The notes under the pieces were generated by a model. That model saw only the letters and a program-made list of their open reading frames with translations. It ran no database searches and was not told the DNA's origin. From NCBI GenBank assembly GCA_025934735.1, contig JAICWP010000018.1:1-64000 (forward strand): a DNA stretch of 64,000 bases. Reading direction: 5' to 3'. The position numbers and the translations under genes were made by a program. Below, in pieces: positions 52,514 to 55,374 of this stretch. Source of the stretch: Terriglobales bacterium (GTDB taxonomy: Bacteria > Acidobacteriota > Terriglobia > Terriglobales > Acidobacteriaceae). Positions within the stretch are counted from its first letter, which is position 1, and every line of letters starts with the position of its first letter.

Positions 52514-53164
52514 TTAGGCCGCTTTGAACTGGCCCTGGGTCTTCGCCTTTTTTTTCTTATAGCGCCGCCAGAAGTAGATTCCCAGCACCGCAATTCCGAC
52601 CATCATGGCGAGGTCGGCCTTCTCGAAAAAATCCACTAGGCTGCTGAACTCGTGGCCGAAAGCATAGCCGAGCAGCACGATACCCGTCACCCAGGTGGCG
52701 GCGCCCAGAAAATTGAACAAGGCAAAGCGCCTCCAGTCCATGCGCAGAACTCCGGCCAGTGGACCGGCGAGCGTGCGCAGTCCCCAGATGAACCGGGCAA
52801 TGTAAATGGTGAGGTCTCCCCGGCGTTTAATGAGGTGCTCACCGGCGGCAATATCCTCATCGTCCAGGTGGAAGATGTGTTTCCATTTGTTCAGAAAGCG
52901 GCGGCCCAGGGTGCGGCCGGCCCAATAACCCAGGTTGTCGCCGAAGGTGGCAGCCGCTACTCCAGCCACAATGATCCAGACATAGTGAAAATGTTGCTGC
53001 CTGAAGGCCAGAAAGCTGGCGAAGATGAGGATGGTTTCCCCGGGAAGAGGCACACCGGCATTTTCCCCCAGCAGCCCCACAACAATGGCCCAGTATCCCC
53101 AGGCGAGAAGGTAAGGCAATAATATACTTGACAAATCAGACGTGCTTTCGTATGCTTTACCCAT
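52514..53164 (-). CDS. DedA-family membrane protein, 5' end replaced by an insertion element
   Basis: The body is a normal DedA protein: WGYWAIVVGLLGENAGVPLPGE, GDNLGYWAGRTLGRRFL, RFIWGLRTLAGPLAGVL and a lysine-rich C terminus, with about four to five membrane segments. DedA proteins act in membrane lipid and polarity homeostasis. An IS1595-like element is inserted at its codon 12. The present frame uses an ATG at 53164 inside the element; 16 element-encoded residues and one hybrid codon are then joined in frame to native YLLAWGYW. No ribosome binding site precedes that ATG, so expression is doubtful. The native start is found on the far side at 55403. Confidence 0.85.
   Translation of the reverse strand: MGKAYESTSDLSSILLPYLLAWGYWAIVVGLLGENAGVPLPGETILIFASFLAFRQQHFHYVWIIVAGVAAATFGDNLGYWAGRTLGRRFLNKWKHIFHLDDEDIAAGEHLIKRRGDLTIYIARFIWGLRTLAGPLAGVLRMDWRRFALFNFLGAATWVTGIVLLGYAFGHEFSSLVDFFEKADLAMMVGIAVLGIYFWRRYKKKKAKTQGQFKAA
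53107..53114. repeat. Target-site duplication GAAGGTAA, left copy
   Basis: The eight bases directly outside the left terminal repeat equal those outside the right one at 55367-55374. Eight bases is the length typical of IS1595-family insertion. Confidence 0.95.
53115..53137 (+). repeat. Left terminal inverted repeat
   Basis: GGCAATAATATACTTG followed by ACAAATC. It differs from the right repeat at two positions only and contains the -35 box of the transposase-side promoter. Confidence 0.93.
53128..53156 (+). promoter_or_regulatory. Promoter of the element's plus-strand genes, probably leaderless
   Basis: A perfect TTGACA (53128-53133), a 17-base spacer and TATGCT (53151-53156) are seen. The expected start point, about seven bases on, is the A of the ATG at 53163, so the mRNA would be leaderless. 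The -35 box lies inside the terminal repeat, where a bound transposase could repress it. Confidence 0.65.
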
Positions 53165-53333
53165 GGCAGGAAAGAAGCCACACCCGGACGAGGTTAAGCG
53201 TAAGGCGGTTAAGCTGGCTGAGCGTTCATCAAAACTTTCGGCTCGTTCCGCTAGTCTGCTAAAGAAAAGCAACGACCTCCTGCATAAGTCTAGATCGTTG
53301 GTAGAGTCAATACGAAAGGGACGCCAACAATGA
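53163..53333 (+). CDS. Small basic coiled-coil protein of the IS1595-like element
   Basis: The 56-residue product is lysine/serine-rich and helical (DEVKRKAVKLAERSSKLSAR, then ASLLKKSNDLLHKSRSLVES). It ends overlapping the transposase start as ATGA, so the two are coupled. It may be an accessory DNA-binding or regulatory protein; no family is known to me. Its ATG overlaps, on the opposite strand, the ATG of the dedA fusion frame. Confidence 0.65.
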   Translation: MAGKKPHPDEVKRKAVKLAERSSKLSARSASLLKKSNDLLHKSRSLVESIRKGRQQ

Positions 53334-54307
53334 ACCATCCACGCACCCTGCAAGAAGCCATCCGATACTTCACTGACCCCGACAATGCGTTGGCCTATAT
53401 GGTCCGGCTGCGCTGGCCCGATGGTGTTGTCACCTGTCCCAAGTGCGGGCGCACTGATGTTGTGTTCCTGAAGAATCAGCGCAAGTGGCAGTGCAAGAGT
53501 ACCCATGACCACCGCCAGTTCTCCGCCAAAGTAGGAACCATTTTTGAGGACTCTCCCATTCCCTTGGACAAATGGCTTACCGCCGTGTGGATGCTCTCCA
53601 ACTGCCGCAACGGCATCAGCAGCTACGAGATCGGGCGCACCATCGGCGTGACTCAGAAGTCGGCATGGTTTATGCTGCATCGCATCCGATTGGCTATGCA
53701 GGGTAAATCCACAGTGAAACTCGGCGGTGGTGGTGGAGAAGTGGAAGCGGACGAAACCTTCATCGGCGGCAAGGCCCGCAACATGCACAAGAGCGTGCGG
53801 ATGCGCCGCATCCAAGGTCAAGGATTCAATGTGGAAGATAAAACCACTGTCATGGGCATACTGGAGCGCGGTGGTAAGATTCGCGCTCACGTTGTTCCCG
53901 ACAGGCGGAAAGAAACTCTGCAACCTATCGTGCGTGAACATGTCAATGCGGGCGCGGCGCTCTTCACTGATGAGCTGGTCGGGTATCAGGGACTCGCTGG
54001 CGAGTACGAGCACAAGATTGTTGACCATGCGACTCGCTATGTGGATGGGAAAGTGCACACCAACGGAATGGAGAACTTCTGGAGCCTGCTGAAGCGCGGA
54101 CTGGGCGGAACCTACGTCAGTGTTGAGCCATTCCATCTGTTTCGTTATCTGGACGAGCAAGTATTCCGCTACAACAATCGCAAGAACGATAACAACAAAC
54201 CGATTCCCGATGCTCAGCGTTTCGAGCTTGCCATGAGCAACATTCTCGGCAAGCGCATTACTTATGCTGCTCTCACTGGCAAGACTGACACTACGTCTAT
54301 CAACTAA
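53330..54307 (+). CDS. IS1595-family transposase
   Basis: The 325-residue protein has an N-terminal zinc ribbon (CPKCGRTDVVF near 36, then a Cys/His pair near 55-61). The helix-turn-helix is at about 95-125 (ISSYEIGRTIGVTQKSAWFM). The catalytic core has D141 (VEADETFIGG), D214 (LFTDELVGY) and E248 (HTNGMENFWS). The length and motifs are those of the ISXO2-like DDE domain. It is translated by overlap from the small gene upstream. Confidence 0.94.
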   Translation: MNHPRTLQEAIRYFTDPDNALAYMVRLRWPDGVVTCPKCGRTDVVFLKNQRKWQCKSTHDHRQFSAKVGTIFEDSPIPLDKWLTAVWMLSNCRNGISSYEIGRTIGVTQKSAWFMLHRIRLAMQGKSTVKLGGGGGEVEADETFIGGKARNMHKSVRMRRIQGQGFNVEDKTTVMGILERGGKIRAHVVPDRRKETLQPIVREHVNAGAALFTDELVGYQGLAGEYEHKIVDHATRYVDGKVHTNGMENFWSLLKRGLGGTYVSVEPFHLFRYLDEQVFRYNNRKNDNNKPIPDAQRFELAMSNILGKRITYAALTGKTDTTSIN

Positions 54308-54477
54308 GCCTTATCGACGCCTGAAGCGCGGCCCGAAGCGGAAGTCCTAAACTTCCGCTTTTTTCGCGCCTTTGCTGCTTTTTCCGCGTCTAGTTTAGCC
54401 TTGATGGCGCTGTGCGGAACGTGCATCAGTTGCCGCATCGTTCGGTCGAATCGGTCAAATTCGTCGTTTTTGCTCAC
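54304..54477 (-). CDS. 57-residue passenger protein coupled to the DUF3800 gene
   Basis: From the GTG at 54477, which overlaps the DUF3800 stop as GTGA, the frame reads SKNDEFDRFDRTMRQLMHVP, then a lysine-rich helix (KLDAEKAAKARKKRKF) and stops at 54304, overlapping the transposase end by two bases. Small proteins with an FDRFDxxMRxLMxVP type start accompany some transposons, as I recall from general knowledge. A role as antitoxin or regulator of its partner is only an inference. Confidence 0.6.
   Translation of the reverse strand: MSKNDEFDRFDRTMRQLMHVPHSAIKAKLDAEKAAKARKKRKFRTSASGRASGVDKA
54337..54364 (+). terminator. Rho-independent terminator after the transposase
   Basis: A perfect nine-base stem AGCGGAAGT / ACTTCCGCT with loop CCTAA is followed by a run of T. 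It lies inside the coding region of the minus-strand 57-residue gene. Confidence 0.8.
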
Positions 54478-55235
54478 TTTATTGCTCTCCTGCGTATCCG
54501 CTTTTTGGATGAGTGAAAAACAAATTCGATGTTGGCTGGAATCTCTCCACGCTTGGGGACTCCCATCATCTTGAGTCCCTCAAGCATATGTTTCTTATGG
54601 TATCGCCCTTCAATCAACTCCTTGGACTCGGAGAGGATTCGCTTTAATGTTCTCCTACGCGAGTTGTTCTCATAGAAGTGCCCAACTTCCCAGGAAAGCA
54701 TATCGGCTGGCTGCACCGCTGGAGTTGATTTCGGTACGGGCGTCGGAATTGGAAGCGCATCACGTTTGAATACTTCCTCCATGTCGCCTCTGTGGAGTGT
54801 CCCGTCCTCCACAAAAACCAGAAGTTCGTCCCGGTTCGGGTAAAAGAAATTTGTTTTCCAAAGATTGATGTTGCGTGCCACGCATCTGGCTGCGATAGCG
54901 AAAGGTTTTCCGATGCATTCCTCAAGAGGATAATCGCGGTTTACTGCCTTATAGTCGGTCATGTCTACGATGGCGATCAGGGTTGCTTCCGCGTGTTCCA
55001 TGATTACCGTGATGAGTTCATTCAAGATGTCCCACTTCTCTGGCTTTCCAGCGAACTTTCGCTCAAAATCAGCCATGTGAAACACGTCATCCTTCAGGTG
55101 ACACCGCTTGACCACGGCTCTCCATTTTGGCTCAAACCGTAGCCAGTTCTCCTCCCGGGCAAGGAAGCCGGAGGCGATGACCGCTGGACGGTCAGCGGGA
55201 TGACAGCCATCATCAACATAGGTGGAGTAATTCAC
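54474..55235 (-). CDS. DUF3800 passenger protein
   Basis: The product has the DUF3800 pattern: an N-terminal STYVDDG with paired aspartates, HMADFERKF, LIAIVDMTDY in a central strand, LLVFVEDGTLHRGDM, and VQPADMLSWEVGHFYEN with the last acidic residue. The family has an RNase H-like fold, is common on mobile elements and has no firmly known function. The GTG at 55235 is chosen because the fold starts at once; the frame is open to 55325 without family match. It is read toward the transposase and coupled to the 57-residue gene. Confidence 0.75.
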   Translation of the reverse strand: MNYSTYVDDGCHPADRPAVIASGFLAREENWLRFEPKWRAVVKRCHLKDDVFHMADFERKFAGKPEKWDILNELITVIMEHAEATLIAIVDMTDYKAVNRDYPLEECIGKPFAIAARCVARNINLWKTNFFYPNRDELLVFVEDGTLHRGDMEEVFKRDALPIPTPVPKSTPAVQPADMLSWEVGHFYENNSRRRTLKRILSESKELIEGRYHKKHMLEGLKMMGVPKRGEIPANIEFVFHSSKKRIRRRAIK

Positions 55236-55343
55236 GGATGCCACCCAAGCGTGCGCCGGATTATGATTGAGCAGCACGCCAACACAGATGTGCTGCAACA
55301 GGGAGTATTGGCCATCACTGGCCACGATACACCCCGTATATTT

Positions 55344-55366
55344 GATTCGGCAAGTATATTATTGCC
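55344..55366 (-). repeat. Right terminal inverted repeat
   Basis: Read inward it is GGCAATAATATACTTG followed by CCGAATC. The two changes from the left repeat turn the TTGACA box into TTGCCG, so the strong promoter is present only at the transposase end. Confidence 0.93.
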
Positions 55367-55374
55367 GAAGGTAA
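55367..55374. repeat. Target-site duplication GAAGGTAA, right copy
   Basis: It is identical to 53107-53114. Confidence 0.95.

Follow-up and report, generated by a model that had tools for sequence, protein, structure and literature searches.

An IS1595-family element of a Terriglobales bacterium with a DUF3800-type gene in a putative exchangeable cargo slot

Insertion sequences (ISs) of the IS1595 family normally duplicate 8 bp of target DNA, and one of them, tISCpe8, is said in the title of its paper to be a lincomycin-resistance element. Passages of PMC5704250 describe IS1595-family "transporter IS" (tIS), such as tISCpe8 and MTnSag1/tISSag10, as carrying passengers between inverted ends together with an IS1595 DDE transposase. 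We analyzed the first 64,000 nucleotides (the window) of contig JAICWP010000018.1 from a Terriglobales bacterium (GCA_025934735.1), where positions 53107–55374 form a complete IS1595-family element, as judged by inverted repeats, target duplication and transposase domains. The element is a tIS in that a DUF3800-type gene, unrelated to transposition, lies between its terminal inverted repeats (TIRs); tISCpe8 and MTnSag1/tISSag10 differ in being mobilizable elements. An earlier note on this DNA had already proposed a complete IS1595-like element with terminal repeats and an 8-bp duplication, enclosing two GTGA-coupled passenger genes convergent with the transposase. This architecture is borne out (Table 1), with TIRs identical at 22 of 24 positions and a duplication at 8 of 8: the stop codon of a small gene overlaps that of the transposase, and its start overlaps the stop of the large cargo gene by GTGA. 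We propose, with a probability of about 0.72, that the element represents passenger-carrying IS1595 tIS that combine a chassis with a slot and move interchangeable, often defence- or toxin-like enzymes.

Tn7-like transposons are large and targeted. They are alike in having variable, defence-rich cargo, as set out in parts of PMC8649781, whereas the 82 bounded IS1595 elements studied here have a median size of 2.5 kb (range 1.7–4.9 kb) and mostly one large cargo gene. Tn3-family transposons, in the sections of PMC7157771 on this subject, carry toxin-type pairs, HEPN and PIN classes among them, beside their transposition genes after several independent acquisitions, but they have a different transposase and recruit whole toxin-antitoxin (TA) pairs; in the elements studied here a constant small gene goes with a variable large one. 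DUF3800 is described in passages of PMC10910872 and PMC12669027 as an RNase H-fold accessory protein and predicted nuclease of some type V/VI CRISPR loci, where it is linked to defence; the window protein shares the predicted fold and is a divergent family member carried by an IS. The passages of PMC5704250 on tIS mention neither a constant small gene nor a fixed slot for cargo nor a cargo promoter borne by an end. A literature search returned no paper combining IS1595 and DUF3800, and broader searches, judged by titles, the beginnings of abstracts and passages, did not retrieve this design. Passenger-bearing IS1595 elements are known; the slot, the constant small gene and the end-borne promoters appear to be new.

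The transposase relatives studied are the best 80 of 392 (loci are given L numbers), and the 82 bounded elements comprise a first set of 61 and 21 elements of a second set with accepted ends. L041, whose ends look spurious, was kept among them, and L135 (the same as L069), L121, L129, L130 and L134 were left out. Exact 8/8 duplications flank 50 of the 61 first-set elements. When thirteen element pairs were aligned at the DNA level, homology between near-identical pairs was found to begin at the left end, to span the transposase and enter the small gene, to break off at the small-gene start or inside its first ∼20 codons, and to reappear only in the final 25–27 bp. L013 and L015 are 89% identical over positions 1–1128 and again over 27 bp at the right end, and they enclose RusA-like and HEPN-like cargo, respectively; L023/L029/L031/L033, L072/L074 and L142/L145 break in the same pattern. 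L022 and L024 (85%), with HEPN-like and DUF3800 cargo, align in their left part only, and four comparisons among L023, L029, L031 and L033 reveal no cargo homology. Additional short homologous pieces are present in L036/L045, L051/L052 and L146/L149. Judged from these alignments, the elements have a constant chassis with an exchangeable cargo slot, and cargo is replaced between near-identical chassis. Placed on a transposase tree with 81 rows, the DUF3800 label requires 22 changes (22.0 in shuffles) and the HEPN-like label 13 (14.0 in shuffles).

By profile, the cargo of the 82 elements divides into 26 DUF3800, 16 HEPN-like, 3 RusA-like and 37 other, where the RusA-like label, like the membrane-type label used below, was assigned by eye and the HEPN label is a reading of an R-x4-H motif (L010, a member scanned singly, has no Pfam match). 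The small gene accompanies DUF3800 in all 26 bounded elements that carry it, so that the recurring pair predicted in the earlier note does exist, but it is not DUF3800-specific. A Pfam scan of 106 cargo open reading frames (ORFs) recovered 29 families, led by DUF3800 (19) and GmrSD_N (6); DNA methylase, RelA_SpoT, DUF4145, AIPR, ClpP and Schlafen occur once or twice each among the matches listed. In the unselected ORF list, all 18 DUF3800 ORFs (a cluster of 19 minus a spurious 131-aa ORF of L073), 14 HEPN-like ORFs and 3 RusA-like ORFs oppose the transposase in direction. Ten cargoes were scanned singly against PADLOC, and four match defence models: AbiU (L123, 6.5e-155), PDC-S33 (L021, 1.6e-97), models of pAgo systems (L136, Schlafen-type, 1.6e-45) and PD-T7-4 (L038, 7e-8). 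The HEPN-like family combines a T-A-x-x-F-H with the R-x4-H motif; its alignment contains L010, L011, L012, L015, L017, L018, L022, L025, L041, L051, L059, L075, L076 and L081. The top solved-structure match of its profile (8fjg "H12", 7e-5) falls outside R-x4-H and was not used.

The window cargo (P0002) had been assigned to DUF3800 in the earlier note, an identity that fails in a direct Pfam scan and stands by way of the relative L037 and the predicted fold. No PF12686 row was returned at E limits of 1 and 10 (HMMER filters discard most weak matches), and the gathering score is not reached by the window protein itself; L037 passes it (27 versus 21 bits) and is 32% identical to P0002 over 292 aligned positions (E 4e-45 in a single comparison). 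PF12686 is matched by 14 of 18 aligned relatives, and Asp-38, Gln-205 and Asp-208 are invariant in 18 aligned DUF3800-type sequences, the alignment of which supplied the YxDDxG-type and Q-x-x-D motifs. The structural model (predicted local distance difference test (pLDDT) 77.5, predicted template modeling score 0.76) has RNase HII as its best VIA match (1uax_A, Z 9.5, 153 residues, root mean square deviation 3.6). According to this model the cargo has an RNase H2-like fold, which fits the RNase H-like fold expected for DUF3800 proteins in the earlier note. Because residues 1–30 are poorly predicted (pLDDT < 50) and a predicted −10 element overlaps the annotated GTG at 55325, translation probably starts near residue 28, at a GTG near 55244. 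Searched against solved structures, the DUF3800 profile hit a single chain (E 0.071), and the window cargo has no match among the plasmids searched. A link to DUF3800 RNA motifs was considered and rejected, as scans of the window and of 18 DUF3800 loci returned no Rfam DUF3800 RNA at threshold.

TIR positions 14–18 read TTGAC in the left-end consensus and TTGAC or TTGCC in right ends, with TTG at position 14 in 77/82 left and 73/82 right ends. This motif is followed, at a spacer of 16–18 nt, by a −10-like hexamer (4/6 or better) in 91% of the 80 scored left ends (exactly 17 nt in 90%; control spacings 1–17%) and in 59% of the 76 scored right ends (control spacings 3–14%). Both ends thus seem to carry a promoter directed inward, the left serving the transposase and the right the content of the slot, an arrangement that would explain why cargo is convergent with the transposase. 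The chassis would consist of the left TIR, the transposase, the small lysine-rich gene and the ∼25-bp right TIR, and the slot would extend from the small-gene start to the right TIR, filled in the window by the DUF3800-type RNase H2-like gene. The right-end promoter would drive the cargo, followed by the small gene through translational coupling, and the left-end promoter the transposase; as both promoters lie across the ends, transposase bound there would repress both. The DUF3800 product could be a nuclease that either serves defence or arrests growth as an effector; for the small protein, a role as a chassis-encoded nucleic-acid-binding helper or regulator is proposed.

We built a profile of the small protein from 13 seed sequences; 12 of the transposase relatives gave seeds. 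It matches 71 of the 80 relatives (L084 weakly, E 0.02), or 59 of 68 when the relatives that gave seeds are excluded; seven of the nine without a match have no accepted end pair, and the other two, L082 and L087, are bounded elements. Searched alone, the profile hits 34 places, spread over 18 of the 297 genomes, and an IS1595 transposase lies within 4 kb at 26 of the 33 places outside the window, a figure that training on IS1595 loci may favour (the other seven places are L126, L131, L137, L139, L144, L148 and L152). The frame is under purifying selection, with a ratio of nonsynonymous to synonymous substitution rates (dN/dS) of ∼0.05–0.5 in 11 pairs (dS was not computable in a twelfth); lack of conservation, which the earlier note had named as the finding that would speak against its proposal, is thus not observed. 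Two helices are predicted (mean pLDDT 78, predicted template modeling score 0.38), and no solved structure matches at E ≤ 1. The gene lies on the cargo strand in 66 of 81 rows, and an exact 4-nt overlap occurs in 13 of 67 same-strand cargo-small pairs (gaps of second-set loci were measured with stop-to-stop frames, and the gap of L020 pairs the wrong small gene). It accompanies HEPN-like, GmrSD, RelA/SpoT, methyltransferase, AbiU-type and ClpP-type cargo as well. Across 59 first-set elements, small-protein identity correlates with transposase identity (r = 0.55, reached in 0 of 2000 permutations). The stable two-gene module suggested in the earlier note is not supported as a dedicated pair: the small gene stands beside many cargo classes and tracks the transposase, and cargo is replaced on a kept chassis. 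The DUF3800/small pair was therefore rejected as a unit. An extra zinc-ribbon-like protein family (94–115 aa, five seeds) is encoded between small gene and transposase in L032, L036, L046, L052 and L075, and its profile also detects members in L054 and L125 (2e-8 and 3e-9).

Unusual elements suggest how cargo may change. L146 (1875–3702) holds two DUF3800 genes in tandem, separated by an internal copy of the right end (20/22) at 2826, and looks like stacked cargo cassettes; L128 has a weaker internal copy (17/22) near its right end. Shuffled interiors of the 82 elements yield an expected 0.05 matches in all at ≥17/22 to the element's own ends (the internal match of L020 is a neighbouring copy). 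These copies fit the gain of cargo through adoption of a further right end, by which, as in L146, new genes would enter the slot. More distant IS1595 copies differ in content. In the genome of the window, L155 (3040–5010; transposase 35–38% identical, ends 18/18, exact duplication) encloses a convergent 277-aa gene matching a Proteasome model only at E 0.098, and the small gene was not found in L155 or in L154 of the same genome. Among four distant plasmid copies, three have no small-protein match and the fourth a weak one (E 0.0065). L156 (3418–6021) and L157 (693–4105), on plasmids of Roseomonas marmotae and Methylobacterium oryzae (about 39% identical; acceptable ends of 14/18, exact 8-bp duplications), enclose, by annotation, a hypothetical gene, a PIN/VapC-type gene and a 61–62-residue ORF behind the transposase and on its strand. 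Toxin-like cargo therefore extends beyond this IS1595 clade, and the small gene does not. L129, on contig C46 of the window's genome, is an apparently decayed relative (transposase residues 3–281, 66–70% identical) with one recognisable end only and a small gene ∼1.4 kb off.

Several observations weigh against a chassis with interchangeable, defence- or toxin-like cargo. No accepted end pair was obtained for 20 of the 80 relatives, partly owing to contig ends. On the transposase tree, clustering is seen for the mixed "other" label (18 changes versus 26.9 in shuffles) and for all four cargo classes together (31 versus 36.8, a value this low arising in 1 of 200 shuffles), so that independence of cargo from chassis is incomplete. 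When cargo was selected at a later stage, preference was given to ORFs opposite the transposase in direction; in 13 of 81 rows the small gene is read in the same direction as the transposase; and the predicted right-end promoter of the window element is weak. Cargo and small protein may be true partners in some elements: the two are fused into a single ORF in L016, L019 and L045, a shared cargo class adds a slight effect on small-protein identity among the 59 first-set elements (p = 0.005), and the transposase-less L131 (3028–4514; ends 22/24, duplication 7/8) retains DUF3800 and the small gene, together with a further, apparently membrane-type ORF. With respect to defence, the 115 PADLOC families matched by 106 cargo ORFs, against 37 matched by 106 flanking ORFs (drawn from 134), favour such cargo, but these tallies count families rather than proteins, with one methylase matching many models, and compare cargo with flanking ORFs chosen under other length limits. 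Six of the ten singly scanned cargoes, HEPN-like and RusA-like ones included, have no PADLOC model at 0.001. Up to E 1, the window cargo matches no family of PADLOC, NCBIfam or PHROG (no PADLOC model matches the small protein at that limit either), and a Foldseek search with its model returned nothing at E ≤ 0.001 (best 1.9e-3).

The small protein may be a helper of the chassis, as its constancy and linkage to the transposase suggest, or a partner of the cargo, to which operon coupling, the fusions and L131 point. In the first case it could be a transposition accessory acting in end binding, target choice or transposase regulation, and the cargo would be neutral or beneficial to the host and functionally unlinked to it. 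We hold this to be a credible, if tentative, alternative. The gene is near-universal in this transposase clade, the conserved chassis DNA covers it, the protein follows the transposase in sequence, and in some elements, among them L069, L076 and L081, the gene stands directly behind the transposase on the same strand. Against this speak its predominant position on the cargo strand, the DUF3800 fusions, its retention in L131, and its absence from L154, L155 and most of the distant plasmid copies, from which it follows that IS1595 elements in general do not need it.

A TA-like or effector-immunity module, with the DUF3800 nuclease as effector, the small protein as its restraint and addiction as the means of keeping the transposon, seems unlikely to us. 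It would account for the GTGA coupling and the exact overlaps in other elements, for L131, for the slight same-cargo effect, for the toxin-like nature of other cargo classes and for the fusions, which require three changes on the transposase tree; each fusion retains an internal ATG, however, and may be a mere stop loss. The same small family also stands beside unrelated cargo, methylase and ClpP-type genes included, and its protein tracks the transposase, on whose strand the gene sometimes lies. Partner specificity could be read either way: many cargo classes share the small gene, fusions and a weak same-cargo effect exist, and shared antitoxins would look alike. In a more far-reaching reading, which we consider improbable, the clade would serve anti-phage or abortive-infection effectors as a minimal plug-in carrier: their genes would be swapped singly behind the right-end promoter and coupled to the constant protein of 50–60 residues, a universal partner (an adaptor or promiscuous antidote) of unrelated nuclease, HEPN and alarmone-type effectors. 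That the elements are ordinary ISs with chance passengers, acquired through decay or nested insertions and without an organised slot, is very hard to believe: IS1595 elements with passengers are already known (tIS passages of PMC5704250) and some elements here are long with mixed or spurious ORFs, but the duplications are mostly exact, named cargo is uniformly oriented, independent pairs break at similar points, and the same few cargo families recur on unrelated chassis.

The window element interrupts a dedA-type gene close to its 5′ end, and joining the flanks with one copy of the duplication restores an open dedA/VTT frame that includes ...MHWIVNTVHHYLLAWGYW... The first codons of this gene are displaced by the insertion; the frame stays open into the element's left end and meets an ATG in phase at 53164 (52514–53164, minus strand), and thus a DedA protein with a new N terminus could still be made. 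Between left end and transposase lies a 56-aa ORF, absent from the earlier note, for which tblastn found a match in none of the 80 transposase relatives. We therefore rejected its conservation; a layout of four genes that includes this ORF does not recur in these relatives, and one of three genes does. The left end-to-transposase distance is 215 nt in the window copy versus ≤75 nt in the other pairwise-aligned elements, and the nearest relative, L120, aligns with the window element only at positions 1–24 and from 219 onward.

Table 1. Features of the IS1595-family element and its insertion site (window positions)
Feature	Position	Strand	Evidence or note
Interrupted dedA/VTT-domain gene	52514–53114	−	VTT_dom 1e-18; remaining 5′ end right of 55374
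Left target-site duplication, GAAGGTAA	53107–53114		8/8 identical to 55367–55374
Left TIR, contains −35 hexamer TTGACA (53128–53133)	53115–53138	+	22/24 versus right arm
−10-like TATGCT, 17 nt after TTGACA; predicted transposase-side promoter	53151–53156	+	Family spacing pattern
56-aa lysine/serine-rich ORF (P0004), overlaps transposase start via ATGA	53163–53333	+	This copy only
IS1595-family DDE transposase, 325 aa	53330–54307	+	PF12762 (6e-41, 140 bits, cut-off 27); PF12760, N-terminal zinc ribbon (9e-11, 42 bits, cut-off 25.4); NF033547 (3e-52, 177.5 bits, cut-off 75)
57-residue lysine-rich small protein, FDRFD type	54304–54477	−	Profile match in 71/80 relatives; dN/dS < 1
Cargo: DUF3800-type, predicted RNase H2-like protein, up to 283 aa	54474–55325	−	Relative L037 and predicted fold
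−10-like TATCGT (4/6), 18 nt from TTGCCG; predicted weak cargo promoter	55324–55329	−	Family spacing pattern
Right TIR, contains −35-like TTGCCG (55348–55353)	55343–55366	−	22/24 versus left arm
Right target-site duplication, GAAGGTAA	55367–55374		8/8 identical to 53107–53114

If the chassis-and-slot reading is correct, these elements would be defence-gene carriers of ∼2–3 kb, much smaller than the usual defence islands and Tn7-like carriers, and they may act as minimal carriers that shuffle defence genes among bacteria. The slot could then be mined, as any gene lying in it, from the small gene up to the right end, would be a candidate effector, including unnamed families such as the HEPN-like one. 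DUF3800, long without a known function, would gain a testable context and a candidate partner. A simple rule, in which a −35 hexamer lies inside the end and cargo is convergent with the transposase, may illustrate how an IS could activate foreign genes.

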